Shown here piece after piece: positions 1 to 14,167 of a stretch of 14,167 bases of DNA (position 1 is the first letter of the stretch; every line of letters starts with the position of its first letter). The stretch comes from a bacterium (lineage in GTDB: Bacteria > CSSED10-310 > JAJRTK01), in NCBI GenBank assembly GCA_024278345.1, contig JAJRTK010000548.1, positions 1 to 14,167 of the forward strand, in the 5' to 3' direction. The translations under genes were made by a program, and so were the position numbers. The notes beneath the pieces are model-generated. The model searched no databases. It was not told the origin of the DNA and saw only the letters and a list, made by a program, of their open reading frames with translations.

Positions 1-396
1 GAAGCCTGCGAGTCCTCCCGCCAAGAAGCCAGCCGTCAAGGCGGTGCAGACGGCTCCAATCCCATCAGAAAAGAAGGGGGTCCACCTCATCGCCCAAGCT
101 CCGGCCAAGGTGCCGAGGAGCAATTGCCCTCCGGACCCCGGATTCCACAACCCCGCTCGCAAGGAGAGCGCCACGCCCAGTCCCGAAAAAAGCAACGGCA
201 GGGATCGAAGAAGGACCGCCTGGATAAAGAGCGACACCTTTTGGGGGAGGCCCCGGGCCCCTAACCAGGCGTCCCACGCCTCTGGAATCGGCAGCCCCAT
301 GGCCCAGGCGGAGGCCACCACCAACAAGAGGCAAGCCGCGCCGCCAAACAGAAGTGCCGCAACTCTATCGCTCTTCCATGGACGCGGGTTCAGCAT
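1..396 (-). CDS. ABC transporter permease, nucleoside/simple-sugar type (YufP/NupP-like), partial at left edge
   Basis: This is the N-terminal 132 codons of an inner-membrane permease; the rest lies outside the window. Reading the minus strand from the ATG at 396-394 gives a short basic start (MLNPRPWKSDR), a hydrophobic first membrane segment (about residues 13-32), a second hydrophobic stretch (about 52-65), then RAGLWNPGSGGQLLLGTLAG. That last block matches the family signature of an Arg-Ala-Gly-Leu/Phe-Asn-x-Gly-x-x-Gly-Gln core followed by small hydrophobic residues, known from BPD_transp_2 permeases such as YufP/NupP. The start overlaps the stop of the ATPase gene by 7 nt (ATGCTGA), so the two are probably translationally coupled and work as one importer. 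The substrate (nucleoside, purine or other small solute) cannot be told; no BMP-family binding protein is visible here. The family call is good, the substrate is inference. Confidence 0.82.
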   Translation of the reverse strand, partial: MLNPRPWKSDRVAALLFGGAACLLLVVASAWAMGLPIPEAWDAWLGARGLPQKVSLFIQAVLLRSLPLLFSGLGVALSLRAGLWNPGSGGQLLLGTLAGAWAMRWTPFFSDGIGAVCTALTAGFLAGGLAGF

Positions 397-2036
397 TCGC
401 TATCGATTCCTCTCACACACCCGTCGGGCGCCCTGATCAATCTTCGTAGATCCTCAGCTCCTCCCGCGGGTTCCGCCAGTTGCCACCGTCCATTCCGGAG
501 TACCGCAACACGATGGGATAGTTCAAGAAGAAACTCTGGATTCGTTGAGGCGAACAAGATTGCGGCACCGGCCTCCGCCAGCCTGGCCAGCCGCCTGTGT
601 AGTGCCGCGGCAAGCTCGATCCCCAAGCCATCCTCCGGCTCTAGGGCGACAATGAGGGCCGGGGAAAATGATAGATCCCGAGCCCATAGCAACTTGGCGC
701 ACTGGGCGGCGGGCAGGTCTCGGACGGCATTCTCCAGCTCCAAATGGCCACATCCGATACTCTTCAGTAGCCCTCTGGCCAAGCTCCAGGCCCGCCGCTT
801 CCGAAAAAAAGGACCTACCCGCAAGCCAGGCCGAGAGGCCAGGCGAAGAAGCAAGTTTTCCCCCACGGAAAGTTCCCAAGCCAGTGCATCTGGGGCGGAA
901 GCAGGAAGAAGAAAGCGGGAGATCGCCCTCAATTCTCTGGCGGCCCTGGCCCCAAAAAGCCAATGCCGCGATCCACCACACCGAATACGCCCGTTCTCTA
1001 CCTGAACGATGCCCGCAGCCACGAAGCAGAGGATCTCCAATTCCCGCCGGTCCAGGGCGGCTACCCCCAGAACCTCACCCTGGCGGAGCACGAAGGAAAC
1101 ATCCCGAAGCTCCACACCCTCCAGACAGGCGCTCCCCCGGTCGATCTCTAGGATACCCTTTTCGTGGGTACGGCGCGGCTGTATCTCCCTATTCTCCGCC
1201 GAGAAGCCATTAGTTTTGGGATTGGTTTCCCCCAGCCAGGCACGGACCCTCTTGACAACGTTGCCCCGCTTGGGGGCCTGCAGCTCTTCCGGCGACACTC
1301 GGCCAGCCAAGACTCCGCCCCGAAGCACTGATATCCGGTCCGCAAAGGCCAACTCCTCTCTCAAGATGTCGTCGTGGAGAAGAAAGCCACCGCCCTGACT
1401 TCTCACTTGTCTCATGAGGCGCGCCAGAGCTTCCGCCTCACCGTGGCTCAGCCTGGAAAGCGGTTCGTAAAGGATAAATGCCCGGCAGCCCGCGGAAAAC
1501 GCCAGGAAGAGCTCGAACCTCTGTCTCTCCCCAGGTGTACAGGCACTCACAAGGCGACCGGGCAACAGCTCGAGGCCCAGATTTTCGGCTGCAAGCTGCA
1601 TCTCTTTGCGAAGGCGGCGATTCACCCAGAATCTGGAATGGCGGAGCGCCCAGTTTCCCAGCAGTGTCAACGAAGGCACCAGGGAGGAAACGCCGTCCAC
1701 CAGCCTGACCTTCGAGGCGGCGTCATCATGCCCGGCATTCCCGGGTGCGGAGGATCCGGCCCAGATTACATCCCCTTGGTCGGGCTGTTCAGTCTTGGAC
1801 AAGATCCTGACAAGTGTGGCCCTTGCCACAGGGTCTTTTCCTAAAAGAAGGTGGATTTCCGATGTTCGGAGAGCAACGGAAACCTCGGAAAGGACGCCAC
1901 CGCCCTGGAGCCGCTTGCTCAATCGTCTGCCCTGGACCAGTGGAATCCGCCTCTCCTTGTCCAATGAAAGGTGCTGGATGTCTGGTTCCCAGTCTTCTTC
2001 GGATTCAGGGGAAAGCATGATAAAGCGGCGCGTCAT
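390..2036 (-). CDS. ABC transporter ATPase with two NBD halves, YufO/BmpD-like, both halves degenerate
   Basis: This is a 548-residue protein with the two-domain architecture of nucleoside/simple-sugar importer ATPases. The family layout is clear: a VPSLTLLGNWAL stretch after the Q-loop site, a QR-containing signature area (167-173), ELSVGENLLL in the second half (about 388-397), and ASTNPEFLLELSHRVAVLRNG near the end (partial LSD/R-x-AV motif). The catalytic motifs are badly altered. The first P-loop reads GKDPVARAT (66-74), with Arg for the Walker A Lys and Ala for Ser. Walker B reads FILYEP, with Tyr190 for Asp, although Glu191 and the H-loop His221 remain. The second half lacks the usual GNGQ P-loop, and its LSGGNQQK signature is LPAAQCAK. 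ATG at 2036 is chosen over the TTG at 2039 because GGAG at 2044-2047 sits 7 nt upstream. It is the first gene of a minus-strand pair with the permease. The frame is open throughout, so it is not an obvious pseudogene, but ATP hydrolysis is doubtful. Confidence 0.8.
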   Translation of the reverse strand: MTRRFIMLSPESEEDWEPDIQHLSLDKERRIPLVQGRRLSKRLQGGGVLSEVSVALRTSEIHLLLGKDPVARATLVRILSKTEQPDQGDVIWAGSSAPGNAGHDDAASKVRLVDGVSSLVPSLTLLGNWALRHSRFWVNRRLRKEMQLAAENLGLELLPGRLVSACTPGERQRFELFLAFSAGCRAFILYEPLSRLSHGEAEALARLMRQVRSQGGGFLLHDDILREELAFADRISVLRGGVLAGRVSPEELQAPKRGNVVKRVRAWLGETNPKTNGFSAENREIQPRRTHEKGILEIDRGSACLEGVELRDVSFVLRQGEVLGVAALDRRELEILCFVAAGIVQVENGRIRCGGSRHWLFGARAARELRAISRFLLPASAPDALAWELSVGENLLLRLASRPGLRVGPFFRKRRAWSLARGLLKSIGCGHLELENAVRDLPAAQCAKLLWARDLSFSPALIVALEPEDGLGIELAAALHRRLARLAEAGAAILFASTNPEFLLELSHRVAVLRNGRWQLAEPAGGAEDLRRLIRAPDGCVRGIDSEC

Positions 2037-2043
2037 CAAACAT

Positions 2044-2047
2044 CTCC
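2044..2047 (-). promoter_or_regulatory. Ribosome binding site deciding the ABC ATPase start
   Basis: GGAG on the minus strand lies 7 nt before the ATG at 2036 and only 4 nt before the TTG at 2039. The spacing favours the ATG. Confidence 0.5.
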
Positions 2048-4843: not shown

Positions 4844-4913
4844 TTGCTCGTGCTCACAGCCCACCGTGATTTTCAGAAAACCCATTGCTTTCTATTGGTT
4901 ACGTTCCGCTCCC

Positions 4914-4937
4914 AGCGGCGGCAGTCCGTCCGCCGCT
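4914..4937. repeat. Perfect inverted repeat, candidate terminator of the speA unit
   Basis: AGCGGCGG (4914-4921) pairs perfectly with CCGCCGCT (4930-4937) around an 8-nt loop. It lies 70 nt after the stop of the 169-residue gene. On the plus strand it is followed only by GTTCGCC, so a classical T tract is missing; it could act with Rho or as an mRNA 3' stabiliser. Confidence 0.45.
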
Positions 4938-4975
4938 GTTCGCCATCATCACCGCTCTCGCTATCCACCGAAGCA

Positions 4976-4992: not shown

Positions 4993-5136
4993 GGAACCTG
5001 TATTTAACGAGCATGATCCCGGCGACCACACCCCGGAAGATGAAAGTAAATGGCACCGAGCGCCATAACCACGCCGTCGAAGATGGATTTAGCCATGTAC
5101 TTTCATGGTAAGGGAGGCTGAGCAACACCGGAGGGG

Positions 5137-13427: not shown

Positions 13428-13841
13428 ATGGACCGTTTGAAAGTCGGCGAACTCGCAAAACTTGCCAACGTCAACATCCAGACCCTTCGCTACTACGAGC
13501 GAAGGGGGCTTCTCCCGGAGCCCCCGAGAACCGCCTCGAACTACCGCCTCTACCCTAGGGAAGCGGTGCTCCGGGTCCAATTCATCAAGCGAGCCCAAGA
13601 ATTGGGATTCACTTTGCGGGAAATCGGCGATCTCTTGGATTTGCAGGCCAAACCCGGTGCCCGATGCCAAGATGTTTACTCCCGGGCCGAGGAGAAGATC
13701 CGCGACATCGATGAGAAGATCGAGACCCTTTTCCGGATTCGCCAGGCCCTGTCGAAACTGATGACGGAATGCATGGGCCAGTCGCCCATCACCGACTGCC
13801 CCATACTAGAGGCCCTGAACCCCGAAAGGACCAGAGCATGA
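13428..13841 (+). CDS. merR: MerR-family transcriptional regulator with mercury-type cysteines
   Basis: This is a 137-residue dimeric, metal-responsive regulator. Residues 3-70 form the winged-helix DNA-binding domain, with VGELAKLANVNIQTLRYYER (6-25), then GLLPEPPRTASNYRLY and the wing. A dimerisation coiled coil follows (about 81-115). Cys80, Cys115 and Cys124 are spaced 35 and 9 residues apart, exactly as Cys82, Cys117 and Cys126 that bind Hg(II) in Tn501 MerR. The ending DCPILEAL also resembles the mercury regulator (SCPLIASL). This supports sensing of Hg(II) or a related thiophilic ion rather than Cu(I) or redox. The gene is preceded by a long-spacer promoter with a mer-like operator and overlaps the next gene by ATGA. 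No merT, merP or merA is visible inside the window, so mercury specificity is inferred. Confidence 0.88.
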   Translation: MDRLKVGELAKLANVNIQTLRYYERRGLLPEPPRTASNYRLYPREAVLRVQFIKRAQELGFTLREIGDLLDLQAKPGARCQDVYSRAEEKIRDIDEKIETLFRIRQALSKLMTECMGQSPITDCPILEALNPERTRA

Positions 13842-14167
13842 CCAGCAACAACTCCCCAAGACCACGCGCCAGACAGAGGCCCGCCTGCCCCGACTGCGGA
13901 GTTGGCGGAAGAGCTGTCAAAGCCGTAACTCTTGAATCCTTAGTGCGTCCAGAAATCTTGGGACGGCTGAGCCAACTGGACGGGTTCCGCTTCTGCGCGG
14001 AACCCACCTGCGATGTCGCCTATTACCAGCCTGAAACAGGCGACCTTGTGAAGCGGGCGGAAGTCACTGTCCGCATCGGCCAAAAAGAGACCGCCGCCCC
14101 GCGAAGGGTCTGTTACTGCTTCCAATACACTGCTGAACAAATCGAAGAAGATGTGGCAAGGACGGGA
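13838..14167 (+). CDS. CopZ-type [2Fe-2S]/zinc-binding cysteine protein, partial at right edge
   Basis: The first 110 codons of a gene that continues beyond the window are present. The start ATG overlaps the merR stop (ATGA), so the pair is probably translationally coupled. Six cysteines occur in three pairs: C-x2-C (Cys17, Cys20) in CPDCG, C-x4-C (Cys53, Cys58) in FCAEPTCDVAYY, and C-x-C (Cys92, Cys94) in VCYCF. This order and the CYCF ending match the N-terminal domain of Archaeoglobus CopZ, which binds one [2Fe-2S] cluster and one zinc; related proteins are annotated as iron-sulfur metallochaperones. It likely handles the metal sensed by MerR. Whether a heavy-metal-associated (HMA) domain or a membrane part follows cannot be seen. 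Confidence 0.8.
   Translation, partial: MTSNNSPRPRARQRPACPDCGVGGRAVKAVTLESLVRPEILGRLSQLDGFRFCAEPTCDVAYYQPETGDLVKRAEVTVRIGQKETAAPRRVCYCFQYTAEQIEEDVARTG

Follow-up and report, generated by a model that had tools for sequence, protein, structure and literature searches.

A full-length importer ATPase with both halves of its ATP site apparently dismantled, probably a retained "dead motor" rather than a case of ordinary gene decay

The window analysed here, 14,167 nucleotides in length, makes up the whole of contig C496 in a 6.06 Mb metagenome-assembled genome in 550 contigs that is 88% complete, and it carries near one end a gene for an ABC importer ATPase with two nucleotide-binding domains (NBDs) in which the motifs for ATP binding and hydrolysis are altered almost throughout while the reading frame is intact. 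This is probably a "dead motor" that has been retained rather than a gene in ordinary decay, and we hold with moderate confidence that the product is a non-hydrolysing double NBD that selection has preserved as a structural or regulatory subunit for a pair of permeases.

The gene and its landmarks are listed in the table. A preliminary description of this DNA had placed an intact, full-length frame at 390-2036; its coordinates were right, the strand, which it had left unstated, is the minus strand, and no internal stop or frameshift of the kind that marks a pseudogene was found in any of the 548 codons. Translation could alternatively begin at the TTG at 2039, and residues are numbered here from that TTG as residue 1, with motif coordinates counted as residue number x 3 from 2039. 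The protein holds two ABC NBDs in a single chain and aligns over its whole length with the RbsA/NupO class; its full-length relatives are 20-35% identical and align end to end as fused-NBD importer ATPases. The best NCBIfam model, NF047930, is matched over residues 36-518 with 198 bits against a model cut-off of 670. The one competent ATP site that belongs to this class was not found (K73R, Q116G, D191Y, H224D and LPAAQCAK in place of the signature), and thus, judged by its sequence, the ATPase is a descendant of the RbsA/NupO class which would not count as a functional member by the definition of the family.

Table. Features of the ATPase locus, in window coordinates
Feature	Position	Strand	Details
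Putative pseudo-ATPase gene, fused double NBD of RbsA/NupO class	390..2036	-	548 aa from ATG 2036, stop 392-390
Shine-Dalgarno-like GGAG	2044..2047	-	7 nt upstream of ATG 2036 (sequence)
Degenerate N-half Walker A, GKDPVARATL region (family GENGAGKSTL)	1809..1841	-	residues 67-77 (alignment)
Q-loop position, Gln to Gly	1692..1694	-	residue 116 (alignment)
Walker B region ILYEPLS	1455..1475	-	residues 189-195; Asp191 to Tyr, Glu192 kept (alignment)
H-loop position, His to Asp	1368..1370	-	residue 224 (alignment)
Second signature LPAAQCAK (family LSGGNQQK)	693..716	-	residues 442-449 (alignment)
Permease 1 (PF02653 type), N-terminal part	1..396	-	ATG 396-394 overlaps ATPase stop; continues on contig C318

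Members of the RbsA/NupO family regularly have a degenerate second ATP site that is without its Walker A lysine, and NupO lacks the second Walker B acids as well; for Bacillus subtilis RbsA and NupO, where the second site is already degenerate, the reason is stated as unclear (PMC11466899). The family thus relies on one site, formed by the Walker A, Q-loop, Walker B and H-loop of the N-half together with the signature of the C-half, and part of what looks like loss in the C-half of the present ATPase is ancestral. The residue losses given in the preliminary description (K73R, S74A, Q116G, D191Y, GNGQ and LSGGNQQK) were all confirmed in an alignment with 23 canonical relatives, and its statement that key residues are lost in both halves is true, with the qualification that the loss in the C-half is partly the norm of the family (PMC11466899). 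The elements of the normally competent site now read GKDPVARAT (Walker A, for GENGAGKST, with the E, N, G, A and G changed in addition to the lysine and serine), G (Q-loop), FILYEP (Walker B), D (H-loop) and LPAAQCAK (C-half signature); the catalytic Glu192 is the only one of these elements left unchanged, Thr75 and Gly67 being retained within the altered Walker A. Signature 1 is CTPGERQR compared to LSxGxQQR in the family, the GNGQ of the C-half has become DRRE, and further changes not listed before are H224D in the H-loop, E128G, R381S, D473G and E503F. What appears from the motifs to be new in this ATPase is the dismantling, on both faces, of the single site that is normally competent in the family, and from this the protein would be expected neither to bind nor to hydrolyse ATP. 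With 24 of the 36 strongly conserved motif residues altered and neither a frameshift nor a stop introduced, the pattern exceeds what chance or read error would give.

With the codons that this gene uses, a substitution at random would produce a stop in about 3% of cases. Neutral loss of 24 of 36 motif residues implies some 880 substitutions and 27 stops, and neutral loss of 36 of 80 conserved residues implies some 479 substitutions and 15 stops; with 15-27 stops expected and none seen, the probability of a stop-free frame under neutral motif loss is between 4e-7 and 1e-12, and a gene changing neutrally could, at the 95% limit, take up only about 97 substitutions, or some 12% of codons, before a stop appeared. 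The losses were also concentrated in the motifs, where 12 of 36 conserved columns were kept compared to 32 of 44 elsewhere (P = 0.0006 in the 23-relative alignment, which is short of most minus-strand matches; P = 0.03 and 0.11 at looser thresholds), the motif column ranges being our own choice from known ABC motifs, made after the alignment was seen. A second set of 44 other named relatives gave 12 of 36 against 33 of 51 at an 80% threshold (P = 0.005), with P = 0.013 at 70% and 0.08 at 90%, and in functional relatives the order is reversed, the motifs being the better-kept class. Hydrophobic character was kept at 98 of 106 core columns (92%), compared to a neutral expectation of 71-83 and an overall hydrophobic fraction of 45%. 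Signs against retention are that the ATPase has the lowest codon-usage score among the genes compared, more polar positions turned hydrophobic (25 of 141) than any relative, and an extremely long tree branch (8.8 against a median of 0.75, a figure unreliable as a number). The absent stops, the motif-biased loss and the kept core are nevertheless at odds with simple neutral decay of the ATPase.

The structure prediction that the preliminary description had proposed as a check returned both NBDs (AlphaFold2 with a 45-row alignment, mean pLDDT 81, pTM 0.71), a prediction which relatives inform and which does not prove the protein's own folding, and the best PDB matches of the model by Foldseek were fused-NBD importer ATPases such as 8wdb_D (from the DppABCD complex) and also 8j5q_D. 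Together with the motif-biased loss, the absence of stops and the hydrophobic core, the predicted fold indicates, indirectly, that the fold has been kept under selection.

The ATPase gene lies in an operon-like arrangement, with an arginine decarboxylase gene divergent upstream of it and permease 1 following directly, the ATPase stop and the permease start overlapping in ATGCTGA (396-390, 7 nt). Permease 1 runs off the end of the contig, where positions 1-286 of the window overlap the end of contig C318 in an exact dovetail with 275 of 286 bases identical (96%); most probably, therefore, C318 continues the locus as it stands in a slightly different strain. On C318 lie the remainder of permease 1 and then permease 2, both members of PF02653, and through this 286-bp link the two permease genes that follow the ATPase in BMP-type importers are present. 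The Bmp/PnrA-like binding-protein gene of such operons was not found, and no substrate-binding protein gene of any kind was found at the locus, in keeping with a system that has given up active import. A single Bmp-family gene was found in the genome, on C285, where it neighbours a large hybrid histidine kinase, and its product may serve sensor input rather than transport; within L058, 314-6455, this Bmp/PnrA-like gene overlaps the open frame of the kinase (a frame of 1720 aa), and it is away from the permeases seen.

Both ends of the window overlap other contigs at 96-98% identity (1-286 with C318 and 13777-14167 with C500), which suggests that the metagenome contains variant strains. The window also holds an element of about 107 bases at 5004-5110 and a related stretch at 4870-4968, with dozens of copies in the genome that are 91-98% identical, some of them accompanied by the second, related stretch; this is possibly a miniature mobile element or another kind of dispersed repeat. 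Two more dispersed repeat families, of dozens of copies each, lie at the left ends of C318 (L057, 1-130) and C285 (L058, 1-235), so that both contigs terminate in such repeats, and many repeat matches fall at other contig ends. The left ends of C318 and C285 were considered as further control overlaps and were rejected as dispersed repeats.

The alternative that survives best, though we consider it rather unlikely, is that the whole transporter is decaying after long rapid evolution and a recent release of selection, with stops still to appear. The two permeases keep 15 of 20 and 16 of 24 of their conserved residues at a 90% threshold, fewer than their relatives do, so that the earlier statement that the permease retains its own motif was right in part only; the missing binding-protein gene and the weak codon-usage score of the ATPase point the same way. 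For permease 1 the strain comparison gave 7 nonsynonymous and 4 synonymous differences, one of them a leucine to proline change beside a conserved motif, but a control overlap at the other end of the window gave a similar ratio (4 nonsynonymous and 3 synonymous in a CopZ-like gene, the count beginning at its likely start). This makes the strain ratio uninformative, and dN/dS from the overlaps was dropped as evidence. Against decay stands the limit of about 97 substitutions for stop-free neutral change, far below what the motif loss requires. Of the two options that the preliminary description had offered, early decay or conversion to a non-hydrolysing subunit with a new role, we favour the second because the 15-27 stops are absent and the core is not scrambled; the first may still apply as recent decay, and selection may have been relaxed recently on a gene that had earlier been retained.

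A second alternative is that ATP is still bound and hydrolysed through a rewired, non-canonical site, with Arg73 in place of the lysine and Glu192 kept, and that the importer is active. The retention of Glu192, Thr75 and Gly67 and the intact frame and predicted fold would agree with this, but the Walker A glycines, the glutamine, the Walker B aspartate, the histidine and the opposing signature are all changed, and among 128 relative loci no variant resembling this degenerate site was found, which makes such a site quite improbable. The Walker A lysine was kept in all 128 (126 by pattern, L073 and L148 on inspection), a set of which the genome-contig part was chosen through Walker A/B patterns and 48 genome-search loci are free of that bias. 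A close homologue was not found by protein search of the genome contigs or by genome searches; the alignment scan gave canonical relatives only, partly because its patterns contain the Walker A and B motifs. No closer relative was found in the phyla of two of the better-matching genomes, where the relatives obtained have normal motifs, and only seven other genomes from the same phylum surfaced in the search. The check for a second, canonical copy of the ATPase, also proposed earlier, found no other double-NBD protein of the RbsA class in this genome (88% complete, so that some 12% may be missing). Its other ABC ATPases, for example a Wzt-like one in the window, have normal motifs, and thus the genome is not generally degenerate.

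It is very improbable that the frame has been kept solely by translational coupling to permease 1, with the ATPase product unused and stops selected against as they would silence the permease: the overlap of 7 nt between permease start and ATPase stop is suggestive of coupling, but coupling alone would not preserve the hydrophobic core (98 of 106) or the motif-specific pattern of loss. An assembly or sequencing artefact is hardly credible, as even in a contig of a fragmented genome with strain-variant contig ends, read errors could not place dozens of in-frame substitutions in 1.6 kb and leave the frame and the core undisturbed, and the assembly holds no competing copy.

For the retained pseudo-ATPase that we prefer, descent would be from an importer ATPase of the NupO/RbsA class in which the ATP site was lost while the fold remained under selection. 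The protein would be made together with the two permeases, as the Shine-Dalgarno-like site and the overlap with the permease start suggest; it would adopt the double-NBD fold typical of the class and lie beneath the permeases, and without a nucleotide site it could not power alternating access with ATP. Its likeliest use would be in assembling or stabilising the permease pair, held together at the coupling surface, with the complex no longer a pump but a passive or regulatory unit that works without ATP; we infer the loss of hydrolysis, the binding to the permeases and the use of the complex alike. By descent, nucleosides may be the substrate. A more specific proposal, which we offer only tentatively, is that an importer of the nucleoside/ribose class has with the loss of ATP hydrolysis become an ATP-independent channel, facilitator or sensor in which the fused NBD pair is purely structural or regulatory.

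Transport driven by ATP is what defines ABC transporters, in which a degenerate site is mostly known as one member of a pair: degenerate-site transporters, the OppABCD/DppABCD type included, have one degenerate and one working site. Heterodimeric exporters likewise have one degenerate site beside a working one (PMC7756269). No known importer ATPase degenerate at both sites was found in the literature, which is weak evidence as open-access papers only were covered. The present protein is like NupO (YufO) of the B. subtilis NupNOPQ guanosine importer and related BMP-type ATPases in having two NBDs in one chain of the same length and domain order, two PF02653 permease genes downstream and a degenerate second ATP site; unlike NupO, which retains one competent site, it has that site dismantled too, and its locus has no binding-protein gene. 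RbsA and NF047930 (putative B6 ABC transporter ATP-binding protein) give its best match among NCBIfam models, from which it departs in its score and its lost motifs. With the degenerate-site transporters, such as the fused NBDs of the M. tuberculosis OppABCD/DppABCD type and the heterodimeric exporters, it shares the loss of catalytic residues in an NBD retained for structure or regulation, and its predicted fold matches such systems (8wdb_D and 8j5q_D); it differs from them in having no recognisable site at all. If our reading is correct, a full-length importer NBD pair that lacks any recognisable site would be a test case supplied by nature for the non-hydrolytic roles of NBDs in assembly, gating or signalling, and would stand at the extreme of the series of fused RbsA/NupO NBDs with one degenerate site (PMC11466899).
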